Of a stretch of DNA of 64,000 nucleotides, positions 5,903-30,229 are shown in pieces. The notes below the pieces were generated by a model. The model ran no database searches and was not told the origin of the DNA. It was given only the letters and a program-made list of their open reading frames with translations. The stretch lies in contig JAOPYK010000263.1 in NCBI GenBank assembly GCA_025964695.1, positions 1 to 64,000 on the forward strand, given 5' to 3'. The DNA comes from Streptosporangiaceae bacterium (GTDB lineage Bacteria > Actinomycetota > Actinomycetes > Streptosporangiales > Streptosporangiaceae). The position numbers and the translations under genes are program-made. Each line of letters begins with the position of its first letter. The first letter of the stretch is position 1.

Positions 5903-6967
5903 ATGGAGATCGAGACGGAGATCGATACCGAGATCGAGACTGACGGGCCGGCCCCCACGACACGGGTGACCCTTCTGAACAACTCCAGCCGCCGGGTGCG
6001 GCGTGCCTGGCACGCCGTCGCCGCCTCCGCCGAGGTGGGTGAGGGGCCCGCGCAGGTGTGGCTGCTCGGCGCACCCTGGGTGCTCGTACGGCTGGGCGGA
6101 GCCGTACGGGCCTTCCCGGACCGCTGCCCGCACCGGCTGGCCCCGCTCTCCGCAGGCCGGCTCACCGACGGCACCCTGCAGTGCGGCTACCACGGCTGGA
6201 GGTTCGCCGCCGACGGCGGCTGCGTCGAGATCCCGGCGCTCGGCAAGACGGACAAGATCAGCCGCCGCGCCACCCTGGCGGCCCCGTTCGGTGTGACCGA
6301 GCGGTACGGCCTGGTCTGGCTGGCGCCGGAGGAACCGCTCGCGCCGCTACCGGAGTTTCCCGAGTGGGAGGACGAGCGTTTCCAGACCGCCATGTGCGGG
6401 CTGGTCAGGACCCCGGCGAGCGCCGCCCAGCTGGTCGACAACTTCATGGACGCCTCGCACTTCCCCTACGTCCACCAGGAGACCTTCGGCGCGGGGGAGA
6501 GCGCCCGGGTGGTCGACGCCGGGGTGGACCGGGACGGCTGGTCGGTGTCGACCACCTTCTCGACCTGGTACCGCACGATGGACGACGCCAAGGCCGAGGC
6601 GGGGGAGCGGGGCACCCTCCAGCGTCAGAACCTGTTCAAGCAGGGCTTCGCGTCCTACAACGTCTACCTGCGACTGGACTTCCCCGACATCGACTGGACG
6701 TTCGGCATCATGTTCTGCTGCCAGCCCGAGACCGCCGACACCACCCGGGTCTACAAGCTGCTCGCCCGCCGAGACGACCTCCCGGCGGGCCCCGAGCGGC
6801 TGGAGACGTTCGTCAAGGACGAGGACCGCATCACCGCGGAGGATCTGGGCATCCTCGAGCGCTATCACCACCGGCACATCCACCTGGACCGGCAGGCCGA
6901 GATGCACACCAGGGCCGACCGGCTCAGCCTCGCCTGGCGCACCCTCATGGCAGAGATGGACGGATAG
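5903..6967 (+). CDS. Rieske [2Fe-2S] aromatic-ring oxygenase, large subunit type
   Basis: The 354-residue protein has a Rieske centre (Cys75-x-His77, 16 residues, Cys94-x-x-His97). Its C-terminal catalytic domain has mononuclear-iron ligands in the DNFMDASHFPYVH segment (His186, His191). This is the layout of vanillate-demethylase and phenoxybenzoate-dioxygenase-type oxygenases, which need a separate reductase; none is adjacent. The first 14 residues are a repeated Glu-Ile-Glu-Thr run encoded by a 12-nt tandem repeat, unusual in this family, and may sit upstream of the functional core. There is no good ribosome-binding site before ATG 5903. Its 3' end overlaps the convergent amidase gene by 23 bp. 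Confidence 0.88.
   Translation: MEIETEIDTEIETDGPAPTTRVTLLNNSSRRVRRAWHAVAASAEVGEGPAQVWLLGAPWVLVRLGGAVRAFPDRCPHRLAPLSAGRLTDGTLQCGYHGWRFAADGGCVEIPALGKTDKISRRATLAAPFGVTERYGLVWLAPEEPLAPLPEFPEWEDERFQTAMCGLVRTPASAAQLVDNFMDASHFPYVHQETFGAGESARVVDAGVDRDGWSVSTTFSTWYRTMDDAKAEAGERGTLQRQNLFKQGFASYNVYLRLDFPDIDWTFGIMFCCQPETADTTRVYKLLARRDDLPAGPERLETFVKDEDRITAEDLGILERYHHRHIHLDRQAEMHTRADRLSLAWRTLMAEMDG
5906..5941 (+). repeat. 12-nt tandem repeat, three units, in frame
   Basis: Three units of the form GAGATCGANACN follow the start codon of the Rieske oxygenase and encode EIET-EIDT-EIET. The period is exactly 12 nt, so copy-number change would keep the frame. Confidence 0.85.
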
Positions 6968-8348
6968 CCGCGTGGCCGGTGGCGTCGGTGAAGGCCTGGG
7001 CGATCTCCAGCAGCCTGACGTCGGAGCCGTACGGCCCGACGAGCTGAAGACCGACCGGCAGGCCCGCCGAGGTGAAGCCGGCAGGCACCGAGATCGCGGG
7101 ATGCGCCGTGACGGTGATCCGTGAGCAGGAGCGTATCCAGTCGATATAGGTCGCCTGCGGAACGCCGTTGATCTCCTGCACCCATTCCACGTCCGCGGAG
7201 AACGGCGTCACCTGGACCGTCGGCAGCGCCAGCACGTCGAAGCCGTTCTCCTCCGGGCGGAGGAACGCCCGCATCCGCTGGAAGATCTCCGCCCTGCGGG
7301 TGAGGGCGGCGGCGACGTCGGCACCGGTCAGTGCGAGGCCCTTCTCGATGTTCCAGACGAGGGTCTGCTTCATCTGGTCCCGGGAGGACTCCAGCAGCGG
7401 GCCCAGCGCGGCCATCAGCTGGGCACGCAGCACCTGGAAGACCTCGTCGGCGTCGCTCAGCTCGGGCGCGGCCGGGACGACCTCGCAGCCCAGCCCCTCC
7501 AGGGCCGTACGGGCCCGGTCCAGCACCGCGGTGACCTCGGATTCGACCGCCAGGTCGCCCAGGTCCGGCGTCCACGCGATCCGCAGGCCGCGCAGGCCGG
7601 CCGGGCGCAGGCCGAGGAAGTCCGCGGGCCGGTCCGGCCTGGACAGCGGCAGGCCCGCGTCCTGACCGGACAGCCCGGCCAGCAGCAGAGCGGCGTCGGC
7701 CGGGGTACGCGCGATGGGGCCGATCACCGACAGCGGATTGAACGGGTCGTCGGGCACCAGCCCCGGGGTCGTGCGCAGCCCCACCAGGTTGCAGAAGGCC
7801 GCGGGGTTACGGACGCTGGCCGCCAGGTCGGAGCCGTCGGCGAACGGCAGCAGCCCCGCCGTCACCGCTGCGGCGGCGCCCCCGCTGCTGCCGCCCGGCG
7901 TGAGCGTGCGGTCATAGGGGTTCCGTGTCGCGCCGAAGATCGGATTGAACGTCTGTGACCCGGCCCCGAACTCGGGGGTGTTGGTCTTCCCGACGATGAT
8001 CGCGCCGGCCCGCCGGAGATTCGCCACGTAGGCGGCGTCGCGTTCCGGCACGTTCGCGGCGAAGACCGGCGAGCCGAAGGTGGTGCGCAGCCCGGCGGTC
8101 TCCGCGAGATCCTTGATCGCCATGGGCAGGCCGTGCAGCGGCCCCAGCCCTTCGCCACCGGCCGCGGCTTCGTCGGCCTTGGCCGCCGCGGCCAGCGCCT
8201 GCTCGGGCGCCAGGGTGACGATCGCGTTGATCTCCGGGTTGATCCGCTCGATCCGGTCCAGGAAGGCGGCGAGCAGCTCCCGGGCCGACAGCTCACGCGA
8301 TCGCAGCATCCGGGCCAGCTCCACTGCCGGTGTTATGTACAGGTCCAT
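6945..8348 (-). CDS. Amidase signature-family hydrolase
   Basis: The 467-residue enzyme has the amidase-signature core: Lys79 in MAIKD, the GGSSGG loop with the cis-serine around 154-155, and the nucleophile Ser178 in DLAASVRNPA. Such Ser-cisSer-Lys enzymes hydrolyse amides, and some are GatA homologues. The lack of neighbouring gatB/gatC and the sequence style argue for a catabolic amidase. ATG at 8348 begins at the conserved N-terminus. The gene converges on and overlaps the Rieske oxygenase gene, so the two are not co-transcribed. Confidence 0.9.
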   Translation of the reverse strand: MDLYITPAVELARMLRSRELSARELLAAFLDRIERINPEINAIVTLAPEQALAAAAKADEAAAGGEGLGPLHGLPMAIKDLAETAGLRTTFGSPVFAANVPERDAAYVANLRRAGAIIVGKTNTPEFGAGSQTFNPIFGATRNPYDRTLTPGGSSGGAAAAVTAGLLPFADGSDLAASVRNPAAFCNLVGLRTTPGLVPDDPFNPLSVIGPIARTPADAALLLAGLSGQDAGLPLSRPDRPADFLGLRPAGLRGLRIAWTPDLGDLAVESEVTAVLDRARTALEGLGCEVVPAAPELSDADEVFQVLRAQLMAALGPLLESSRDQMKQTLVWNIEKGLALTGADVAAALTRRAEIFQRMRAFLRPEENGFDVLALPTVQVTPFSADVEWVQEINGVPQATYIDWIRSCSRITVTAHPAISVPAGFTSAGLPVGLQLVGPYGSDVRLLEIAQAFTDATGHAAIRPSLP

Positions 8349-12160: not shown

Positions 12161-13315
12161 TCACGCCGCCTGGACGCGCAGCGGCCAGGCGGTCAGATCG
12201 CCGAAGCGGTTCTCCGGGAGCGCCTGCAGCCGGGCCGCCGCGGCGGGGATGTCGGCGATCAGCCGGTCGGTGTCGAAGCAGCGGCTTTCACCGACGCTGA
12301 GGACCCCGTACAGCAGCGCCTCCGGGGTACGGACGATGACCAGCGGGCCGATCTGCACGAAGCCCTTGCCGAGTTCGTGCACCGCCAGCAGCAGCGACTG
12401 CATGGCCGCCAGCTCCGGCGTCGGCGCGCCGGGCCGGGTCTGGTCGCGGAGCGTGTCCAGCAGTGAGATGAACTCCCATTCGAGCTCGACCGGACCCCGG
12501 CCCGACGGGCACGCCAGGTAGTAACGGAGCCCCTCGGGCTCGTCCACCTGGAGCCGGACCTTCAGGCCGTGCTGGTCGAGCAGGTTCGCGTAGAGCAGCA
12601 GCAGGGTGTCGCCGAGCGGGGCGATGTCGGCCGAGAGCCCGCCGGCGACCGTGCCGGAGTCCGGCGGGTCCCCGCCGAGCGTCTCGACGATCTCGCGGTC
12701 GAGCTGGTTCTGGACGCGGTGGTGCACCCGGGCGACCACGCTCTCCACCGACTCCAGCGCACCGGTCAGGTCGTGCTGCAGCTCCCCGTCCTGCGCACTG
12801 GACCGCTCGACGACGTCCAGCCGGGCGACGATGTCCCTGACCTGGTCGCGCAGTGCCGACACGTTGGTCTCCAGGGCCCGGGCGAGATGATCGACCTGGG
12901 ACACCTGGTCATGCAGGTCGTCGGCGTCGACCCGGTCCTCCAGCGAGCCGAGCCGCAGCTCCTGCCGGCCGGCGCCCTCCTCCACCCGCTGCAGGGTGGC
13001 CACCAGCACGTCGAGGTCGCCCCGGTAGGCGTCCAGCCGGGTGTCGATTCCCGGCAGCCGGTGGTCCTCCAGCTGCGAGATGAGTGCGTCGAGCCTGGCG
13101 TAGATCTCCGACAGCGACCCTGTCTGCGCCGAACCCGCCTCCTCGGCCTTGGCCAGCCGTTCCTCGGTGACGGCCTGCGCCGCCTGCGCGGCCTCCCAGC
13201 GCGCCTCGAGCTCCCGCAGGCGCGCGGCCTCGGGGCTCGGCCGCTTGCGGTCGAAGGCCATGTACAGCTCGACCCCGGCAACGATCAGGCACAGCAGGAC
13301 CAGGATCCAGGTCAT
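12161..13315 (-). CDS. Membrane-anchored coiled-coil protein of unknown function
   Basis: The 384-residue protein starts with one transmembrane helix (TWILVLLCLIVAGVELYMAF). A long heptad-rich coiled coil follows (about 30-190) with regular Leu/Val and many Glu/Arg/Asp. A C-terminal globular domain begins around 215 and contains a conserved-looking ANLLDQHGLKVRLQ stretch. The topology is probably N-in with the coiled coil facing one side of the membrane. ATG 13315 has a strong GGAGGAG site. It stands alone between two minus-strand operons, and I do not recognise the family. Confidence 0.8.
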   Translation of the reverse strand: MTWILVLLCLIVAGVELYMAFDRKRPSPEAARLRELEARWEAAQAAQAVTEERLAKAEEAGSAQTGSLSEIYARLDALISQLEDHRLPGIDTRLDAYRGDLDVLVATLQRVEEGAGRQELRLGSLEDRVDADDLHDQVSQVDHLARALETNVSALRDQVRDIVARLDVVERSSAQDGELQHDLTGALESVESVVARVHHRVQNQLDREIVETLGGDPPDSGTVAGGLSADIAPLGDTLLLLYANLLDQHGLKVRLQVDEPEGLRYYLACPSGRGPVELEWEFISLLDTLRDQTRPGAPTPELAAMQSLLLAVHELGKGFVQIGPLVIVRTPEALLYGVLSVGESRCFDTDRLIADIPAAAARLQALPENRFGDLTAWPLRVQAA

Positions 13316-13426
13316 CGCACTCCTCCGGACTCCGGCGCAGGACACGTGCCTCTTACTGTGCCACTCCGGGCTGCCCCGGAACACCACAACTCCTGGCCCT
13401 TCGTGTCATCTGGCGGAAGAGATACG

Positions 13427-15283: not shown

Positions 15284-16333
15284 TCAGGCGGCCATCTCCT
15301 CCGCGAGGGCGGCGATGAAGGCGTCGATGTCCTCTTCGGTGGTGTCGAAGGAGCACATCCAGCGAACCTCGCCGGTGTGCTCGTTCCAGGTGTAGAAGCG
15401 GAAGCGCTTCTGCAGCCGCTCGGTGACGTCCTTCGGGATGATCGCGAAGACGGCGTTGGCCTGCGCGGGCCGGGTCAGGGTGACGCCCGCAACGGCCCGT
15501 GCGCCCTCGTACAGGCGGGTGGCCATCGCGTTGGAGTGCCGGGCGTTGCGCAGCCACAGGTCGCCCTCCAGCAGCGCGATGAACTGGGCGGACACGAACC
15601 GCATCTTCGAGGCGAGCTGCATGGAGGACTTGCGGAGGTACTTCAGGCCGGTGGCCGCCTCCGGGTTCAGCACCACGACCGCCTCACCCGCCATCAGGCC
15701 GTTCTTGGTGCCGCCGAATGACAGCACGTCGATGCCGGCGTCGGTGGTGAAGGCGCGCAGCGGCACGTCGAGCGCCGCGGCGGCGTTGGCGATCCGGGCG
15801 CCGTCCAGGTGCACGAACATACCCCGCTCGTGGGCGTGCGCGCAGATCGCCGCGATCTCCTCGACCGTGTAGAGGGTGCCGAGCTCGGTGCTCTGGGTGA
15901 TGGAGACGATGTTCGGCTGGGCGCGGTGCTCGTCACCCCATCCCCAGGCCTGCCGGTCGATCAGCTCGGGCGTCAGCTTGCCGTCCGGGGTCGGCACCGA
16001 CAGCAGCTTCAGTCCCGCGACCTTCTCCGGCGCGCCGCCTTCGTCCACGTTGATGTGCGCGCTGTCCGCGCAGATCACGGCGGTCCAGCGGCGCGCCATC
16101 GACTGCAGCCCCACCACGTTGGCGCCGGTGCCGTTGAAGACGGGGTACGCCTCCGCGCGCTCGCCGAAGTGGCCGCGAAAGACCTCCTGCAGGTATCCGG
16201 TGTAGACGTCGTCGCCGTACGCCACCTGGTGGCCCCCGTTGGCCTCGCTCAAGGCGGCGAGGATCTCGGGATGGACGCCCGCGTAGTTGTCGCTGGCGAA
16301 TCCACGCACCGACGGGTCATGCAGTGAGGTCAA
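15284..16333 (-). CDS. Low-specificity threonine aldolase-type PLP enzyme
   Basis: The 349-residue fold-type I PLP enzyme has the beta-eliminating-lyase signature: DNYAGVHPEI at the N-terminus, HLDGAR with Asp177 for the pyridine nitrogen, and the Schiff-base lysine Lys210 in SFGGTKNG. Threonine aldolases cleave L-threonine or related beta-hydroxy amino acids to glycine and an aldehyde. The TTG start at 16333, with GGAAAG upstream, overlaps the end of the SDR gene by 17 bp. It is the last gene of a three-gene operon with the SDR and a large protein of unknown function, so its real substrate may be tied to them. Confidence 0.88.
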   Translation of the reverse strand: MTSLHDPSVRGFASDNYAGVHPEILAALSEANGGHQVAYGDDVYTGYLQEVFRGHFGERAEAYPVFNGTGANVVGLQSMARRWTAVICADSAHINVDEGGAPEKVAGLKLLSVPTPDGKLTPELIDRQAWGWGDEHRAQPNIVSITQSTELGTLYTVEEIAAICAHAHERGMFVHLDGARIANAAAALDVPLRAFTTDAGIDVLSFGGTKNGLMAGEAVVVLNPEAATGLKYLRKSSMQLASKMRFVSAQFIALLEGDLWLRNARHSNAMATRLYEGARAVAGVTLTRPAQANAVFAIIPKDVTERLQKRFRFYTWNEHTGEVRWMCSFDTTEEDIDAFIAALAEEMAA

Positions 16334-17018
16334 GGCGCTTTCCGTTCAGTTCGGCGGCGGGCCTGTCCCACAGGCCCGCCATGACATCGGCGAGTTCGTT
16401 GACATGGGTGTAGCCGGAGAAGGCGGCGTTCGGTTTCTGCTCCCGCATCGCGTCGGTGAGCAGTGCCTTCACCACCAGGATGGTGGCGGCGGAGTCGGCG
16501 CCGGTGAAGGCGTCGGCGAGGGCCAGCGTCCAGGCCTCGCCCGCCGCCTTCGCCGCGGCGTAGGCGGCGGTGCCCTGCGTGGGGTGCTGGGCTCCGGGCT
16601 GGGACACGATCGCCACCCGCGCCTGCGGGCTGCGGCTCAGCGCGTCGTGGAAGGCCAGCGTGGTGTGCTGGAGCGTGCGGAGCAGCGTGTCGTGCAGGAA
16701 CGCCCAGTCGGCCAGGTCGGTCTCGGCGAACGTCTTGCCGCCGCGCCATCCACCGACCAGATGGATCAGGCCGTCCACCCGGCCGTGCACCTCGACGACC
16801 TCGGCGGCCCAGTTCCGGGTGTCGTCGAAGTCCAGCAGGTCCACCAGGGCAGGCGAGATCGAGACATCGTCCCACTCGTGGGGCCGCTGGTCCGCGGCCA
16901 CCACGTGGGCACCGCCGGCGGCCAGTCTGCGGACCACGGCCTGCCCCGCCGGGCTGCCCGCCCCGGCCACCACGATCACCTTGCCGGTGAGAGTCACGGT
17001 CCCCGCTTGTGTGTTCAA
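16317..17018 (-). CDS. SDR-family oxidoreductase
   Basis: The 233-residue Rossmann protein has a nucleotide loop AGAGSPAG (a variant of TGxxxGxG), a LIHLVGG segment in place of the usual NAG, Ser139, and the catalytic pair Tyr153/Lys157 (YAAAK). It is therefore likely an active NAD(P)-dependent dehydrogenase or reductase of short length. The TTG start overlaps the stop of the upstream large gene by 4 bp (TTGA), and its own end overlaps the aldolase gene, which points to strict co-expression. Substrate unknown. Confidence 0.85.
   Translation of the reverse strand: MNTQAGTVTLTGKVIVVAGAGSPAGQAVVRRLAAGGAHVVAADQRPHEWDDVSISPALVDLLDFDDTRNWAAEVVEVHGRVDGLIHLVGGWRGGKTFAETDLADWAFLHDTLLRTLQHTTLAFHDALSRSPQARVAIVSQPGAQHPTQGTAAYAAAKAAGEAWTLALADAFTGADSAATILVVKALLTDAMREQKPNAAFSGYTHVNELADVMAGLWDRPAAELNGKRLDLTA
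16356..16380. other. Strong intragenic hairpin near the SDR 3' end
   Basis: GGCGGGCCTGT-CCC-ACAGGCCCGCC forms an 11-bp perfect stem with a 3-nt loop inside the SDR coding region, about 40 nt before its stop and just upstream of the aldolase start. There is no T tract. It could affect readthrough or mRNA stability in the operon. Confidence 0.5.
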
Positions 17019-19105
17019 CGCAGGCCCTTCGTCGATTCGACCACGTCACCGAGCTTCTTGCTCAGTGCCTCGTAGAACATACTGAGGGGGAATTCGTCGG
17101 GAAGTACGGCGTCCACCCATGCCTTCGGCGGTTCGTTGATCGGCAGCGCGTCGACCCCCTTGGCCCAGGCCGAGCCGGGATGCGGCTCGACGTACTGCGA
17201 GACCAGGCCGTAGGCGGCCAGCCAGTGCGCCAGCTTCGGCCGGTCGATGCTGTCTCGGTAGAGCTTCTCGACCGCCTCGCACAGATCGATGACCACGTCG
17301 CCGACCCGGTTCCAGTCCAGCGTGAGCCGGTTGTCGGTCCAGCGCAGCACATCGTGCTTGTGCAGATAGGAGAAGAGCAGTTGGCCACCGAGCCCATCGT
17401 AGTTGCGCACGCGGGCACCGGTGATCGGGAAGCGGAAGAGCCGGTCGAACAGGATGGCGTACTGCACCAGCCGGGCGTGCGGGACGCTGATCTCCGGGTT
17501 GCGCTCGAGCCGCACGGCCTCGCGGAAGGTGGTGAGGTCGCAGCGCAGCTCCTCCAGGGCGTACAGCCAGTACGGCATCCGCTGCTTGATCATGAACGGG
17601 TCGAAGGGCAGGTCGCCATGGCTGTGCGTGCGGTCGTGCACCAGGTCCCAGAGCACGAAGGTGTCCTGGGCGAGGTCCTGGCTGGCGATCAGCCGGGCCG
17701 CGTCCGGTGGTAGCGGCAGGCGCAGCATCTCCGCCGCGGCGGAGCTCACCCGGCGGAAGCGGGCCGCCTCCCGGTCGCAGAAGATGCCGCCCCAGGTGAA
17801 CCGCGGCGGAACCTCGCGCACGGCCACGGTCTCGGGGAAGAGCACCGCGGAGTTGGTGTCGTAGCCCGCGGTGAAGTCCTCGAAGGCGATCGGCACGAAC
17901 ATCGGGTTGTCGTAGCGGGTGGCCTCCAGCTCGGCCAGCCAGTCCGGCCACACCACCTTGAACACGACCGCCTCGAAGTTGCGGTCCGGGTTGCCGTTCT
18001 GGGTGTACATGGGGAACACGACCAGGTGCTCCAGGCCGTCGGCACGGTGCAGCTGCGGCTGGAACGCCGTCAGCGCGTCGAGGAAGTCGGGCACGCCCAG
18101 GCCGTCGGCCGCCCAGCGGCGCAGGTCCGCCGTCACGGCCTCCAGGTAGGCGTGGTCGTGCGGGAACAGCGGGGCGAGCTCCTGTACCGCGGCGGCGATC
18201 CGCTCGGTGAGCGCCAGAGCCTGTGGCCGGCCGTCCTCGCCGACCGAGCCGTCCTTGGCCTGCAGCGGGCGCAGCTCCTCGATGGACTCCTTGAGGTCCG
18301 TCCAGGCCGTGTGGTCGAGCGCGGGGGAGCGGGTCCCCCCACCTGCGTCGGCCGGCTCACCGGCGGCCCAGGTGACCACATTGGTCCAGAGTGCCGCCTG
18401 CTGGTAGTCGGCGATGGAGTCGTCGCCGAACAGGTCGGAGTCGGCGAAGACCGCGACGCGGCCCTTGCCCGCCCGAACGGTCACGGCGAGCGGCTCGCCC
18501 GCCGGATCGGCGGTCGGTGACGTGCGCATGAGCACCTGGGCCTCGGGCGAGGTCGAGCGCAGCACTCCGGCGCGGTAGAAACAGGCGGCCTGGACACCGG
18601 CGAGCAGGTCCTCGCCCGTCCGCCCGGGTTCGGGCCTGCCGAGCACCCAGGCGGCCACCCCGTTGTGGGTGTGGCCGGCGTCGGTCACCATCGTGTTGAC
18701 GACCTCGACGCCGAAGCGGCCCAGGAGCTCGCCGAGGTTGTTGCCGTACTTGTCCTGCTCGCACTCCGCCATGACGACCAGGCCGCCGCCGGCCCGCACG
18801 AACTGCTCGATCGCGTCGAGCTCGGCGTCCGCGAGCCGCGGGCTGCCGATCCCCGTCGTACGCTCCCAGCGGTCGTCGGCAGGATGCGCGATCACCAGCA
18901 CGTCGCGGTCCCGGAGCGCGGCGGGGTCCAGCGGCCCGCCGACATGCGGCTCGATCACGTGACCGTGGCCGCGCAGCAGCTCGGCCGCCCGCACGTAGCC
19001 GCTGTCGGCGGGGTTGCCCGGATTCATCTCCGTGGCGACCTCGCGGCGGATGCTCCAGGACTCTCGGTGGGACTCATCGAAGAGCACCCGCGCAAAGCCA
19101 CGCAT
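17015..19105 (-). CDS. Large conserved actinobacterial protein, DUF6421-like, with GATase-like N-terminus
   Basis: The 696-residue protein has two parts. Residues about 1-250 look like a class-I glutamine-amidotransferase or DUF4350-type alpha/beta fold (RDVLVIAHP, FVRAGGGLVVMAECEQDKYG, VAVFADSDLFGDDS) without an obvious catalytic Cys. Residues about 265-696 are a helical region that I recall as DUF6421, with DLVHDRTHSHGDLPFDPFMI as its clearest stretch (His and Asp could bind metal). No signal peptide is seen. ATG 19105 has GGAG at good spacing. It leads the operon with the SDR and threonine-aldolase-like genes. Function is unknown. Confidence 0.75.
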   Translation of the reverse strand: MRGFARVLFDESHRESWSIRREVATEMNPGNPADSGYVRAAELLRGHGHVIEPHVGGPLDPAALRDRDVLVIAHPADDRWERTTGIGSPRLADAELDAIEQFVRAGGGLVVMAECEQDKYGNNLGELLGRFGVEVVNTMVTDAGHTHNGVAAWVLGRPEPGRTGEDLLAGVQAACFYRAGVLRSTSPEAQVLMRTSPTADPAGEPLAVTVRAGKGRVAVFADSDLFGDDSIADYQQAALWTNVVTWAAGEPADAGGGTRSPALDHTAWTDLKESIEELRPLQAKDGSVGEDGRPQALALTERIAAAVQELAPLFPHDHAYLEAVTADLRRWAADGLGVPDFLDALTAFQPQLHRADGLEHLVVFPMYTQNGNPDRNFEAVVFKVVWPDWLAELEATRYDNPMFVPIAFEDFTAGYDTNSAVLFPETVAVREVPPRFTWGGIFCDREAARFRRVSSAAAEMLRLPLPPDAARLIASQDLAQDTFVLWDLVHDRTHSHGDLPFDPFMIKQRMPYWLYALEELRCDLTTFREAVRLERNPEISVPHARLVQYAILFDRLFRFPITGARVRNYDGLGGQLLFSYLHKHDVLRWTDNRLTLDWNRVGDVVIDLCEAVEKLYRDSIDRPKLAHWLAAYGLVSQYVEPHPGSAWAKGVDALPINEPPKAWVDAVLPDEFPLSMFYEALSKKLGDVVESTKGLR

Positions 19106-24357: not shown

Positions 24358-24626
24358 GTGACAACCGCGTCGGAAGAGCACGGCACGATCCAGCGGCGCT
24401 TCGGGCTGGAGCGCCTCCCCACGCTCACCGTGATCGTGTTCGCGGTCACCGCGGTCCCGAACGCGCTGCAGTTCGCCGTCCACGGGATGCTGGAGCGGCG
24501 CTGGTCGCCGTGCGCGACCTCCACGGTGCCGCGCTGCTGGCCGGCGTGATCGTCGCCGCATCGCTCACGGGTCTGATCCCGGGTGAGGGCTTCCTCAGCC
24601 GGAAAGGCCGAGCTGCCGGGCGATGA
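24358..24626 (+). pseudogene. Rhomboid-like membrane protein remnant
   Basis: A GTG-initiated frame (24358-24549) encodes RFGLERLPTLTVIVFAVTAV and ALQFAVHGMLE, which resemble the first helix of actinobacterial rhomboid-type membrane proteins. The frame then runs into unrelated sequence. From about 24498, a different frame encodes DLHGAALLAGVIVAASLTG, like the last helix of the same kind of protein, ending at 24624-24626 inside the 3' end of the acyl-CoA dehydrogenase gene. The middle, with the catalytic Ser/His helices, is gone. It looks like an internal deletion with frameshift; the family assignment is from memory. Confidence 0.5.
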
Positions 24627-25740
24627 TCATCCGCTGGACCTCGGAGGTGCCCTCACCGATCTCGAGGATCTTGGCATCGCGGTAGAAACGGCCGACGGCG
24701 TACTCGTTCATGAAGCCGTACCCGCCGAAGATCTGCGTGGCGTCCCGGGAGTTGTCCATCGCCGCGTTGGAGGCGACCAGCTTGGCGATGGCGGCCTCCT
24801 TCTTGAACGGCTCGCCGATCAGCATCCTCGCGGCGGCGAGGTAGTAGGCGGCCCGCGCGGTGTGCGCCCGGACCTCCATGTCGGCGATCTTGAACTGGAT
24901 CGCCTGGTACTCGCCGATCGCCCGGCCGAACGCCTCGCGCTCCCGCACGTACCGCAGGCACTCGTCCACGCAGCCCTGGGCCAGCCCCACCGACAGCGCG
25001 GCGATCGCGATGCGGCCCTCGTCCAGGATCCGCAGGAACTGCGCATAGCCGCGCCCGCGGGGGCCGACCAGGTTCTCCTCGGGCACGCGTACGTCGTCGA
25101 ACGACAGCTCGCGGGTGTCCGACGACGACCAGCCGACCTTGGAGTACTTCCGGCCGACCCGGAAACCGGGAGTCCCGGACGGCACGATGATCGTCGAGAT
25201 CTCGCGCTCGCCGGTCAGCGCGGTCACCGTCACGAAGGCCGTGATGTCCGTGCCGGAGTTGGTGATGAACGACTTCGAGCCGTTGATGATCCAGTGCCCG
25301 TCCTCCAGCCGCGCGGTGGTGCGCATGCCGCCCGGCACATCCGAGCCGCCGCCGGCCTCGGTCAGCCCGAACGCGGCCAGCCGCTCACCCGAGCACAGCC
25401 GGGGCAGCCAGGTCCGCTTCTGCTCCTCCGAGCCGAACCGGAAGATGGGCATCGCACCCAGCGAGACCCCCGCCTCCAGGGTGATCGACACCGAGGAGTC
25501 GACCCGGGCGAGCTCTTCCAGCGCCAGGCAGAGCGTGAAGTAGTCACCGCCCATGCCGCCGTACTCCTCGGGGAACGGCAGCCCGAACAGCCCCATCTTC
25601 CCCATCCCGGCGACGATCTCGTAGGGGAACTCGCCCCGCTCATAGAGGTCCCCGATCACCGGGGCGACCACCTCGCGGGCGAACTCCGCGACCGTCCGCC
25701 GCAGTGCCTCCTGCTCGTCGGTGAGCCTGAAGTCGATCAT
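24595..25740 (-). CDS. Acyl-CoA dehydrogenase (branched-chain type likely)
   Basis: The 381-residue flavoprotein has the ACAD signatures (FGLTEAGGGSDVPGG for FAD/substrate binding and QIFGGYGFMNEYAVGRFYRD). The motif EIGEGTSEVQR places a Glu at the catalytic-base position used by short-chain and 2-methyl-branched enzymes, whereas true isovaleryl-CoA dehydrogenases use a different Glu. It may act on isovaleryl-CoA or another short branched acyl-CoA. ATG 25740 has AGGAGAG upstream. It is the last gene of an mccB-mccA-HMG-CoA lyase operon, which supports a leucine pathway role. Confidence 0.9.
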   Translation of the reverse strand: MIDFRLTDEQEALRRTVAEFAREVVAPVIGDLYERGEFPYEIVAGMGKMGLFGLPFPEEYGGMGGDYFTLCLALEELARVDSSVSITLEAGVSLGAMPIFRFGSEEQKRTWLPRLCSGERLAAFGLTEAGGGSDVPGGMRTTARLEDGHWIINGSKSFITNSGTDITAFVTVTALTGEREISTIIVPSGTPGFRVGRKYSKVGWSSSDTRELSFDDVRVPEENLVGPRGRGYAQFLRILDEGRIAIAALSVGLAQGCVDECLRYVREREAFGRAIGEYQAIQFKIADMEVRAHTARAAYYLAAARMLIGEPFKKEAAIAKLVASNAAMDNSRDATQIFGGYGFMNEYAVGRFYRDAKILEIGEGTSEVQRMIIARQLGLSG

Positions 25741-25749
25741 TTTCTCTCC

Positions 25750-26667
25750 TCAAGACGGGGACACGGCCTGGACGACGCGGGACGGGGAGGGACGGCCGAG
25801 CCGGCCGGCCATCCAGCGGCTGGTCTCGGCGAGCGCGGGCAGGTCGACGCCGGTCTCGATGCCGAGGCCGTCGAGCATCCAGACCAGGTCCTCGGTGGCC
25901 AGATTGCCGGTGGCGCTCTCGGCGTAGGGGCAGCCGCCCAGCCCGCCGGCCGAGGCGTCGACGGTGGTGACGCCGCACCGCAGCGCGGCCAGGGTGTTGG
26001 CCAGTGCCTGCCCGTAGGTGTCGTGGAAGTGCACGGCGATCCGGCCGATATCGGTGCCCGCCGTCGCCAGTGCCCCGATCAGGGCGGTGACATGCCCGGG
26101 GGTGCCGACGCCGATGGTGTCGCCCAGGCTGAGCTCGGTGCACCCGAGGTCCAGCAGCCGGGTCGCGACGGACACGACCTGGTCGATCGGGACGTCGCCC
26201 TCCCAGGGATCTCCGAAGCACATCGAGACGTACGCCCGCACCGCCAGGCCCTCGGCGCGCGCCCGTTCCACGACCGGCGCGAACATCGCGATCGACTCGT
26301 CGACCGTCCGGTTCAGGTTGCGCCGGGCGAAGGTCTCGGTGGCGCTGCCGAACACCGCGATCTCCTGGATACCGGCGCCCAGTGCCCGGTCCAGGCCGCG
26401 CTCGTTCGGCACCAGCACGGGGTAGCGGACGCCGGGCGTACGCGGGAGCACCCTGAGCAGCTCCTCGGCGTCGGCCAGCTGCGGCACCCATTTCGGGTGG
26501 ACGAAGCTGGTGGCCTCGATGGTGGTGAGTCCCGCGTCCGCGAGCCGGGTGATGAACTCCGCCTTCACCTCGACCGGCACGATCGCGGACTCGTTCTGCA
26601 GACCGTCGCGGGCACCGACCTCGTAGATCGTCACCCGCTCCGGCAGCCCCTCCAGGCCTGTGCGCAT
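25750..26667 (-). CDS. Hydroxymethylglutaryl-CoA lyase
   Basis: The 305-residue TIM-barrel protein shows the HMG-CoA lyase signatures: RDGLQNE at residues 20-26 with the catalytic Arg, the metal-binding VHFHDTYG and the glycine-rich loop GGLGGCPYAESATGN with the conserved Cys. It cleaves HMG-CoA to acetoacetate and acetyl-CoA, the last step of leucine degradation. ATG 26667 shares one base with the stop of mccA (TGATG). The hydratase that would link methylglutaconyl-CoA to HMG-CoA is not present in this operon. Confidence 0.93.
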   Translation of the reverse strand: MRTGLEGLPERVTIYEVGARDGLQNESAIVPVEVKAEFITRLADAGLTTIEATSFVHPKWVPQLADAEELLRVLPRTPGVRYPVLVPNERGLDRALGAGIQEIAVFGSATETFARRNLNRTVDESIAMFAPVVERARAEGLAVRAYVSMCFGDPWEGDVPIDQVVSVATRLLDLGCTELSLGDTIGVGTPGHVTALIGALATAGTDIGRIAVHFHDTYGQALANTLAALRCGVTTVDASAGGLGGCPYAESATGNLATEDLVWMLDGLGIETGVDLPALAETSRWMAGRLGRPSPSRVVQAVSPS

Positions 26668-28667
26668 CACTGCCGCCTTCCTTCGTCGTCGTCCGGGGCA
26701 GGGGTGATCTCGGCGAGCACCGCGTCCAGCGCGACCTGGGCGCCGGTCCGGGCGGGCAGGTCGGCGACGATCCCGTCGACCGGTGCCGTGACGGTGTGCT
26801 CCATCTTCATCGCCTCCACGATGACCAGCGGCTGACCGGCCGTGACCGCGTCGCCCTTGGCCACCTTCACCGCCAGCACCGTGCCGGGCATCGGGCTGCG
26901 CAGCACTCCGCCGCCCGCCACGCCGGCCGCCGAACCGGCCGCACCGGGCACGAACTCCCTGACCGCCCACGTCCGCCCGTCACGCCCCACCCACACGGTC
27001 CGCTCATCCGCCGCGAGCGCGTACGCCGTGGTACGCCCCCCGTAGGCGACCGCCGAGCCGCCGCGCTCCAGCCCGTGATCCAGCGCGGCCGGGACCGGGG
27101 CGGCGCCGTTGACGGAGATCTCGGCGGCCGCCGAACGGCCCCGGACCCTGACCGGCACGGGGTCGTGGCCGTCCACGCTGAAGCACCAGGTGGTCCAGGC
27201 GGGTTCGCCGAGCCGCCAGCCGTCGCGGATCGCCCACGGGTCCTGGTCACCGGTGGCCTCCAGCGCGCGCAGGCGTTCCAGGGCCGCGGCGGCGAGAACC
27301 TCGTCCGGTACGGCGTCGTGGACCAGATCGTCCAGCGAGCGCTCGACGAGGCCGGTGTCGAGCCGGCCCGCTGCCACGTCGGGATGGGCGATCAAGGCAC
27401 GCAGGAAGGCGATGTTGGTGGGCACCCCGAGCAGGGTGTACGAGGCGAGTGCCCGGTCCAGGCGGGTGAGCGCCGTGGTCCGCTCCGGGCCCCAGGCGAT
27501 CACCTTCGCGAGCATCGGGTCGTAGGAGCCGCCGACCTCGGTGCCCTCGGCGATCCCGGAGTCGACGCGTACGGCGGCGCCCGTCCCCGGCTCGGAAAGG
27601 GCGAGCACCGTGCCGCCCGTGGGCAGAAAGCCGCGTGCCGGGTCCTCCGCGTACACCCGGGCCTCGGCCGCATGGCCCCGGAGCCGTACGCCGTCCTGGG
27701 CGAAGGGCAGCGGTTCGCCGGCGGCGACCCGGAGCTGGAGCTCGACCAGGTCCAGGCCCGTGACCAGCTCGGTGACCGGATGCTCGACCTGGAGGCGGGT
27801 GTTCATCTCCATGAAGTAGTACTCGTCCGGCCGGTCGGCGGACAGGATGTACTCCACCGTGCCCGCCCCGACGTAGCCGACCGCCCGGGCCGCGTCGATG
27901 GCACTGGCGCCCATCCGCTCCCGCTGCTCCTCGGTCAGCAGCGGGGAGGGCGCCTCTTCGATGATCTTCTGATGGCGTCGCTGCAGGCTGCACTCACGTT
28001 CGCCCAGATGGACGACGGCGCCGTGGGTGTCGGCGAAGACCTGGATCTCGATGTGCCGGGGATTCTCGATGAACCGCTCGACCAGCAGGGTGTCGTCCCC
28101 GAACGCGCCCCGGGCCTCCCTGCGGGCCGAGTCGATCGCGGAAGGCACCTCGTCCGCCGACCGGATGAGGCGCATGCCCTTCCCGCCGCCGCCGGCCGAG
28201 GGCTTGAGCAGCACCGGCAGGCCGATCCGCGCCACGGCCTCGGCCAGCGCGGCGTCGGAGAGGCCCGCCTCGTCGCTGCCCGGGACCACCGGCACGTCGG
28301 CGGCGGTGACCGTCCGCTTGGCGCGGATCTTGTCGCCCATCGCCTCGATCGCCGCGGGCGGCGGCCCGACGAAGACCAGCCCCGCGGCGGCGCAGGCGCG
28401 GGCGAAGGCGGCGTTCTCGGCCAGGAAGCCGTATCCAGGATGCACCGCCTCGGCGCCGGTCGCGCGGGCCGCCCCGATGACGGCCTCGGCGTCGAGGTAG
28501 CCGGAGACGCCGACGGCCTCGTCGGCCTCCCGGACGTGGCGGGCGCCGAGGTCCGCCGGGCTGTAAACGGCGACGGAGCGGACGCCGAGTTCGCGGAGGG
28601 TACGGATGATCCGTACGGCGATCTCGCCCCGGTTGGCGATCAGGACTGCGGAGAACATGGGGCTCAC
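26667..28667 (-). CDS. mccA: Methylcrotonyl-CoA carboxylase alpha (biotin carboxylase + BCCP)
   Basis: The 666-residue protein has the biotin carboxylase N-domain ([13 protein letters not shown]), ATP-grasp loop ([14 protein letters not shown]), the [15 protein letters not shown] active-site block and a C-terminal biotinyl domain with EAMKMEH, Lys621 being the biotin site. It carboxylates biotin and hands the carboxyl to the beta subunit encoded immediately upstream. The GTG start overlaps the mccB stop by 4 bp; an ATG three codons later is possible. The neighbours (mccB, HMG-CoA lyase, acyl-CoA dehydrogenase) decide for methylcrotonyl-CoA over propionyl-CoA. Confidence 0.92.
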
Positions 28668-30229
28668 ATCCGGAAGACGCCGTAGCCGACCGGCTCCAGC
28701 GGGGCGTTGGCGGCGGCCGACAGGGCGAGACCGAGCACCCGGCGGGTGTCGAGGGGATCGATGACGCCGTCGTCCCAGAGCCGGGCCGTGGCGTAGTAGG
28801 GGTTGCCCTGGTGTTCGTACTGCTCGCGGATGACCTCCGGGTCGGTGTTACCCACCGAGGCCAGCACCGAGGCGGCCTGCTCGCCGCCCATGACCGAGAT
28901 CCGGGCGCCCGGCCACATCCACAGGAAGCGGGGGGAGTAGGCCCGTCCGCACATCGCGTAGTTGCCGGCGCCGAACGACCCGCCGATCACGACGGTGAAC
29001 TTCGGCACCCGGGCGCAGGCGACGGCGGTGACCATCTTGGCGCCGTGCTTGGCGATGCCGCCGGCCTCGTACTCGCGGCCCACCATGAAGCCGCTGATGT
29101 TCTGGAGGAACACCAGGGGAACCGACCGCCGGTCGCACAGCTCGATGAAGTGCGCGCCCTTGAGCGCGGACTCGGAGAACAGGATCCCGTTGTTGGCGAC
29201 GATCCCGACGGGATGCCCGTGGATGTGCGCGAAGCCGGTGACCAGGGTGGCGCCGTAGTCCTTCTTGAACTCCTGGAACCGGCTGCCGTCGACCACCCGG
29301 GCGATGACCTCACGCGCGTCGTACGGTGTGCGCGGGTCCGGCGGCACGACCCCGTACAGCTCGGCGGGATCGACCGCGGGTTCGCGGACGGCTTCGACGT
29401 CCCAGGGGCGGGGGGCCCGCGGGCCCAGGGTGGCGATGATCCCCCGCACGATCCGCAGGGCGTGCGCGTCGTCGTCGGCGAGGTGGTCGGTGACCCCGGA
29501 AACGCGCGAGTGCAGCTCGCCGCCGCCCAGTTCCTCGGCCGTGACGACCTCGCCGGTGGCGGCCCTCACCAGTGGCGGGCCGCCCAGGAAGATCGTCCCC
29601 TGGTTCCGGACGATCACGGCCTCGTCGCTCATGGCGGGGACGTAGGCTCCGCCGGCCGTACAGGAGCCGAGCACCGCGGCGATCTGCGCGATGCCCCGCG
29701 CCGACATGGTCGCCTGGTTGTAGAAGATCCGGCCGAAGTGCTCGCGGTCCGGGAACACCTCGTCCTGCTTGGGCAGGAAGGCGCCGCCGGAGTCGACGAG
29801 ATAGACGCACGGCAGGTTGTTGTGGAGCGCGACCTCCTGCGCCCGAAGATGTTTCTTCACCGTGATGGGGTAGTAGGTGCCGCCCTTGACCGTCGCGTCG
29901 TTGGCGACGATCACGCACTCCCGGCCGGAGACCCGGCCGATCCCGGTGATGATCCCGGCGCCGGGGGCGTCGCCGTCGTACATGCCGTACGCCGCCAGCG
30001 CGGACAGCTCCAGGAACGGGGAGCCGGGGTCGAGCAGCCCGTCCACCCGGTCGCGGGGGAGCAGCTTGCCGCGAGCGACGTGCTTGTCCCGGGCGCGCTC
30101 CGGGCCGCCCCGGCGGGCGTGCGCCAGCCGGTCCCGCAGCTGCGCGGCCAGGGCGTGATTGAGCTCGGCGTTGCGCTTGTACGCCTCGCCGGTGGGATCC
30201 GCCGCGGTCTCCAGCACAGGTGAGCTCAT
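28664..30229 (-). CDS. mccB: Methylcrotonyl-CoA carboxylase beta (carboxyltransferase)
   Basis: The 521-residue crotonase-fold carboxyltransferase matches MCC-beta closely in recognisable blocks: [55 protein letters not shown] and [16 protein letters not shown]. It transfers carboxyl from biotin to 3-methylcrotonyl-CoA. It is the first gene of the operon, started by ATG 30229, 78 bp from the divergent TetR gene. Two palindromes in that gap are its likely control sites. Confidence 0.93.

Follow-up and report, generated by a model that had tools for sequence, protein, structure and literature searches.

Which role is served by three overlapping genes that encode a DUF6421 protein, a short-chain dehydrogenase/reductase (SDR) and a threonine-aldolase-like enzyme in a Streptosporangiaceae bacterium? 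The operon resides within a stretch of 64,000 nucleotides (contig JAOPYK010000263.1, positions 1 to 64,000; referred to here as the window), and an earlier note on this sequence had proposed a pathway with a beta-hydroxy amino acid or an aldehyde as its substrate, which the enzyme set determined in the present study fits. We tentatively read the operon, with a chance that we would place slightly short of even, as a co-transcribed, O2-dependent amino-acid-oxidizing module which feeds a beta-hydroxy-alpha-amino-acid aldolase, while the SDR would act on the same metabolites. The lead gene product belongs to an enzyme class known since 2025; the three-gene operon itself is uncharacterized, and no description of it was found in the open-access literature on DUF6421, on PolE with pterin or on Streptomyces threonine aldolase, where a single paper proved to be of direct relevance. 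The earlier suggestion of an undescribed system is thus upheld for the specific function of the operon, but not for the enzyme family and its amino-acid-modifying neighbours, which had already been reported (PMC12614342).

The C-terminal two thirds of the lead protein, previously considered to be DUF6421-like, matches PF19985 (DUF6421) from residue 265 to 695 with an E-value of 1e-228, covering positions 1-434 of the 437 in the Pfam profile. Sequence comparison to the PDB retrieved SnPolE and SmPolE as solved relatives (E about 1e-12). Similarly, structural comparison of an AlphaFold2 model of the protein (mean predicted local distance difference test score, pLDDT, of 88) to the PDB by Foldseek placed PolE first, with an E-value of 5e-16 and a target template modelling (TM) score of 0.75-0.79, followed by IFT52 and ThuA-like GATase1 folds and, further down, dipeptidyl peptidase III (DPP III). 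Experiments published in 2025 identified PolE as an L-isoleucine desaturase that depends on Fe(II), tetrahydrobiopterin (BH4) and O2, mutants in its HE/DxxH...E residues were found to be inactive or insoluble, and its authors propose the same class of chemistry for DUF6421 in general (PMC12614342). As the family has a demonstrated activity, the label 'unknown' formerly given to the large protein does not hold in full. The stretch HDRTHSHGDLPFD, which had attracted attention as being rich in His and Asp, is indeed conserved and opens with the DUF6421 metal motif HDRTH (residues 490-494); it represents the iron motif of this family rather than a site resembling those of zinc hydrolases. A zinc-hydrolase or DPP III reading was rejected, as the motif is HDxxH and not HExxGH, and as no structure is nearer than that of PolE. 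The spacing of the full motif, HE/DxxH-x(21-23)-E, is matched by E518 (x23), with E519 following at x24. Residues H490, H494, E518, E519, Y569 and F423 are invariant across about 124 homologues, and F423 and Y569 correspond to two of the three SnPolE positions that have been mutated in PDB entries (F140, Y157 and Y280). Taken from sequence and modelling, the lead protein is predicted to be a member of the PolE-type Fe(II)/tetrahydropterin oxidase family.

The note had also stressed a strong coupling of the three genes and had conceded that its reading would fail if relatives carried them unlinked. A comparison of conserved neighbourhoods reveals strong and wide linkage in many soil actinobacteria instead: the order DUF6421-SDR-aldolase on the same strand is kept in all of the 80 closest genome loci, which were picked as best matches and are therefore no random sample, and it recurs in genomes of a second actinobacterial class (loci L029 and L031). 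Among 201 genomes of the family to which the window belongs, a full-length DUF6421 gene is present in 92 and the SDR in 99 (threshold E<=1e-30, 14 SDR candidates scored per genome); both occur together in 90, as compared to about 45 expected by chance, a contrast that is inflated by kinship. An orthologue of the aldolase was identified in 22 of the 22 DUF6421 genomes that were checked. In two genomes of genus g46, the aldolase is retained about 17 and 26 kb away from DUF6421. The operon is widely distributed and mostly vertically inherited, not confined to particular strains; the conserved flanking genes differ between families, and no additional member is common to the operon as a whole.

The product of the third gene is predicted to be a threonine/phenylserine-type aldolase with intact catalytic residues: homology extends over the full length, and all active-site columns that were checked, namely the pyridoxal phosphate (PLP) lysine, the His base and the Asp and Arg residues of the PLP site, are kept. 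The best profile matches include 5vye (7.6e-115) and 1v72 (8.7e-99), and the protein groups with these and the L-threonine aldolases 7yvr, 9l9g and 7w0i, not with E. coli LtaE. It might be argued that the SDR and the aldolase simply carry out ordinary catabolism of threonine, allo-threonine or a phenylserine-like compound, DUF6421 being a passenger or minor accessory. Both enzyme classes are known to act on threonine-like compounds, as is illustrated by L-phenylserine dehydrogenase, an SDR-family enzyme active on a beta-hydroxy amino acid (PMC2963168), and the SDR-aldolase pair survives in the absence of DUF6421. However, a passenger would not be expected to show so deep and consistent a linkage as DUF6421 does, the second class included, a second, separate aldolase (49-54% identity) in several genomes could serve threonine, and E. 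coli LtaE is far removed in the profile comparison (67 against 387 bits), so that we regard ordinary threonine catabolism as quite improbable.

Further information comes from genomes in which the operon is incomplete. The SDR and aldolase genes occur side by side without DUF6421 in nine genomes, one of which is a fragmented draft with a split aldolase, and in two genomes of genus g17 DUF6421 is directly followed by the aldolase without the SDR. The loci devoid of DUF6421 fall at four to five places on the aldolase and SDR trees, which were built quickly, have moderate support and do not allow parsimony to separate gain from loss. Loci L136 and L035 possess identical flanking genes, from which it follows that DUF6421 alone is missing from one of the two. 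As DUF6421 and the SDR can each be separated from the aldolase and from one another, the aldolase is the steady partner within the operon.

The SDR exhibits a Rossmann fold and the classical Ser-Tyr-x3-Lys residues; its AlphaFold2 model resembles FabG, 17beta-HSD14 and other classical SDRs, and its relatives mostly possess the Asp residue closing the second strand that is typical for nicotinamide adenine dinucleotide (NAD)-type enzymes. One feature stands out, the invariant motif VGGWRG, as GGWxGG is also seen in dihydropteridine reductases. This raises the question of whether the SDR is related to quinonoid dihydropteridine reductase (QDPR) and regenerates the tetrahydropterin of DUF6421, which would turn the operon into a unit of oxidase, cofactor recycling and aldolase. 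When a fragment comprising residues 78-233 was used for searching, dihydropteridine reductases indeed came first (1ooe, 1dhr) and accounted for 6 of the 11 matches, due to the GGWxGG motif and a C-terminal R..P.A..S..T stretch, which are common to the SDR and QDPRs and absent from the other matches of this search. The GGWRG residues occupy what would be the pterin site and are kept in 128 of the 128 relatives, the NAD-type Asp points in the same direction, and addition of QDPR has been reported to raise the activity of PolE 2-3 fold (PMC12614342). When the full-length protein was used, by contrast, the profile and fold searches returned FabG/17beta-HSD14-type enzymes first, and no QDPR was present among the best 60 and best 50 matches, respectively. 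The catalytic Ser, which QDPRs are not known to possess, is fully conserved. In addition, nine genomes without DUF6421 keep the SDR and two genomes with DUF6421 lack it, and an SDR devoted to recycling the cofactor of DUF6421 is hard to reconcile with this pattern. Taken together, the full-length profile, the structural comparison and the distribution of losses weaken the QDPR identity of the SDR, and we consider a recycling function unlikely.

Returning to an oxidizing module that feeds the aldolase, the following sequence of steps might be envisaged. Based on its family, the DUF6421 enzyme would employ Fe(II), tetrahydropterin and O2 to oxidize a free L-amino acid, probably a hydrophobic one, in its side chain; hydroxylation at C-beta would fit the neighbouring genes best, while desaturation, as by PolE, is the only reaction that has been demonstrated within the family. 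The aldolase, the class of which is apparent from its sequence, would cleave a beta-hydroxy-alpha-amino acid to glycine and an aldehyde, or form it from these, and either this beta-hydroxy amino acid or the aldehyde may be the substrate of the NAD(H)-type SDR. With the aldolase as the hub and DUF6421 as one way to feed it, loss of DUF6421 with retention of SDR and aldolase, and loss of the SDR with retention of DUF6421 and aldolase, would both be accounted for. A bolder version, which we think rather doubtful, is that a non-haem iron/tetrahydropterin enzyme of the DUF6421 fold hydroxylates an aromatic or non-aromatic L-amino acid at C-beta, that the dedicated aldolase releases glycine and an aldehyde which is handled by the SDR, and that this oxidative retro-aldol metabolism of amino acids is a widespread actinobacterial route not described before. 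An amino-acid context is supported by two neighbourhoods. In two genomes of family f21, an Lrp/AsnC-type regulator is encoded divergently from DUF6421 (L123, 7496-7945, plus strand; L126, 4627-5136, minus strand), which might possibly provide a handle on the inducing amino acid. Genome G030 carries two operons, the second of which (L118; G030:C17:168000-182000) has a decayed aldolase and adjoins an amino-acid permease (PF00324) and a LysR regulator.

The same enzymes might alternatively make an unusual amino acid for a conserved metabolite, by a synthetic aldolase and/or desaturation by DUF6421, as known from PolE and polyoxin. PolE serves antibiotic biosynthesis, and its authors note that many DUF6421 genes adjoin amino-acid-modifying enzymes and suggest that such neighbourhoods produce unusual amino acids (PMC12614342). 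In the loci read, though, no nonribosomal peptide synthetase (NRPS), polyketide synthase, ligase or exporter adjoins the operon, and its broad and mostly vertical occurrence also speaks against a biosynthetic unit, which we therefore deem an unlikely explanation. A different arrangement was observed in L121 (G209:C1:6562000-6577000), where the gene for a short PolE-like DUF6421 protein of 373 aa (6956-8077, minus strand) adjoins a tryptophan-halogenase-family flavoprotein and NRPS-like open reading frames (ORFs); this is likely a natural-product cluster with a PolE-type desaturase, and similar short copies are found in G510, G519, G559 and G573.

Several observations weigh against the module that we favour. 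PolE desaturates and does not hydroxylate, and the lead protein is only about 18% identical to it over the structural alignment. The equivalent of SnPolE Y157 is I441, so that the three mutated positions are not all conserved, as would be expected for PolE proper, that is, an L-isoleucine desaturase. The model of the lead protein is of low confidence around HDRTH (pLDDT about 50), with values of less than 50 for the loop comprising residues 497-507 and weak ones for residues 490-496 as well, for which reason the metal site is deduced from conservation and not from model geometry. Persistence of the SDR-aldolase pair in genomes devoid of DUF6421 indicates that the oxidase is not essential to the role of the pair. 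Finally, the pathway may run in the direction of breakdown or of synthesis.

The features of the operon are compiled in the table. The gene overlaps of 4 and 17 bp that had been described before were confirmed, all three genes being on the minus strand. The shorter one comprises the sequence TTGA (17015-17018), the longer one extends over 16317-16333, and both require TTG starts in the window. For the aldolase, TTG is the sole start upstream of the conserved N-terminus HDP..RGFASDN; for the SDR, an alternative GTG a few codons further on, at about 16997, would abolish the 4-bp overlap in the window. In 95 of 109 relatives GTGA or ATGA is found at the DUF6421 stop, and the 4-bp overlap is therefore likely ancestral, which supports translational coupling. 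A GC content of 0.92-0.95 at codon position 3 in all three ORFs and full-length, mostly uninterrupted orthologues in more than 100 genomes argue that these are genes and not chance frames. Scans for promoters and terminators identified none.

Table. Features of the DUF6421-SDR-aldolase operon (positions in the window).
Feature	Position	Strand	Basis and remarks
DUF6421 lead gene	17015-19105	minus	696 aa; GATase1-like N-domain of the IFT52/GIFT type fused to a DUF6421 (predicted PolE-type Fe/pterin oxidase) C-domain
N-terminal GATase1-like (DUF4350/GIFT) domain	18356-19105	minus	about aa 1-250; nucleophile Cys not conserved; confined to certain lineages
DUF6421 catalytic domain (predicted)	17018-18319	minus	aa 263-696; Pfam, PolE sequence alignment, Foldseek
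HDRTH (H490, H494), putative HE/DxxH iron-ligand motif	17624-17638	minus	aligned to SnPolE HEYHH; motif role from PMC12614342
E518-E519 (LEELR), putative third iron ligand	17549-17554	minus	E519 aligned to the PolE metal Glu (phmmer)
Y569 (NYDG), equivalent of SnPolE Y280	17399-17401	minus	alignment; Y280 mutated in PDB 9j30
SDR gene	16317-17018	minus	233 aa; adh_short 1e-18; AlphaFold2 pLDDT 95 and classical SDR fold
SDR GGWRG motif, aa 89-93	16740-16754	minus	128/128 relatives; QDPR chain alignment
SDR catalytic S139 ... Y153-x3-K157	16548-16604	minus	each kept in 128/128 relatives
Aldolase gene	15284-16333	minus	349 aa; L-threonine/phenylserine-type PLP aldolase (predicted); Beta_elim_lyase 1.4e-48
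Aldolase PLP lysine K210 (FGGTKNG)	15704-15706	minus	119/119 relatives with the column

The N-terminal domain of the lead protein had been described as GATase-like without a clear catalytic Cys, and this description proved correct. Pfam returns a weak DUF4350/GIFT-like match for residues 30-243, and Foldseek matches the domain to the GIFT domain of IFT52 (E of 3e-11, target TM score of about 0.8) and to ThuA-like GATase1 folds. Its sole elbow-like Cys (AECEQ) is replaced by E, Y, H or T in relatives; amidotransferase activity is therefore unlikely, and a catalytic GATase role was rejected. The fusion occurs in the relatives of the window, in Catenulispora and in two families of another class (f47 and f55) and is missing from Streptomyces and from families f5, f18 and f21; in 14 tested genomes without the fusion, no separate gene for the domain was found. 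The domain is regarded as an optional and probably non-catalytic accessory.

With regard to the cofactor, the genome itself encodes a pterin-4a-carbinolamine dehydratase (PCD) and a homologue of 6-pyruvoyl-tetrahydropterin-synthase (PTPS), and no aromatic amino acid hydroxylase was found in it. As PCD is present in 194 of the 201 genomes of the family, its co-occurrence is uninformative. The PTPS homologue (L116, G000:C114 around 18045-18425) adjoins zinc-dehydrogenase-like and glycosyltransferase-like ORFs, possibly forming a pterin-modifying cluster and cofactor source. Within the window, at a distance of about 5 kb from the operon, ORFs at 24595-30229 resemble, by eye, an acyl-CoA dehydrogenase and subunits of a biotin-dependent acyl-CoA carboxylase, as known from leucine catabolism; their proximity is probably incidental. 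A gene for a coiled-coil protein recurs near the operon in several relatives, at varied relative positions (12161-13387 in the window; just upstream in L035, L136 and L137).

DUF6421 has been recognized as a class of Fe/pterin oxidases only in 2025 and from a single antibiotic pathway. The operon described here is a common home of long-form DUF6421, being chromosomal, deeply conserved and tied to the aldolase. It offers a direct route to the role of most members of the family and can show whether pterin-dependent oxidation of amino acids belongs to general actinobacterial metabolism; the natural losses, in which DUF6421 or the SDR is gone and the aldolase is kept, are ready-made comparisons.

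Among known systems, PolE of the polyoxin biosynthesis in Streptomyces cacaoi (PDB 9j2e, 9j2r, 9j3g) shares with the lead protein the Pfam family, the fold, the HE/DxxH...E iron motif and the LEELR, NYD and LFPE sequences. Identity is remote, and the lead protein belongs to a distinct, longer clade with a core of about 465-490 aa, here extended by a 250-aa N-domain; its gene is linked to those of the SDR and the aldolase, whereas PolE is linked to PolF and the polyoxin cluster. The N-domain has the fold of the N-terminal GIFT domain of IFT52 and of ThuA-like GATase1 proteins, but is found here in a bacterial fusion to a predicted iron oxidase. QDPRs (1dhr, 1ooe, 8b5t) have the GGWxGG motif and the C-terminal stretch in common with the SDR, which differs in its complete Ser-Tyr-Lys triad and is nearer to FabG and 17beta-HSD14 in profile and fold. 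In Pseudomonas syringae NK-15, L-phenylserine dehydrogenase is likewise an SDR encoded in an amino-acid-related operon, and it oxidizes the beta-hydroxyl group of a beta-hydroxy-alpha-amino acid (PMC2963168); it shares the SDR superfamily with the enzyme described here, and that operon contains neither DUF6421 nor an aldolase. The L-threonine/phenylserine aldolase subfamily (PDB 5vye, 1v72, 7yvr), finally, shares full-length homology and catalytic residues with the aldolase, which forms an orthologous group of its own, fixed to the DUF6421/SDR operon and apart from the second aldolase of the same genomes.

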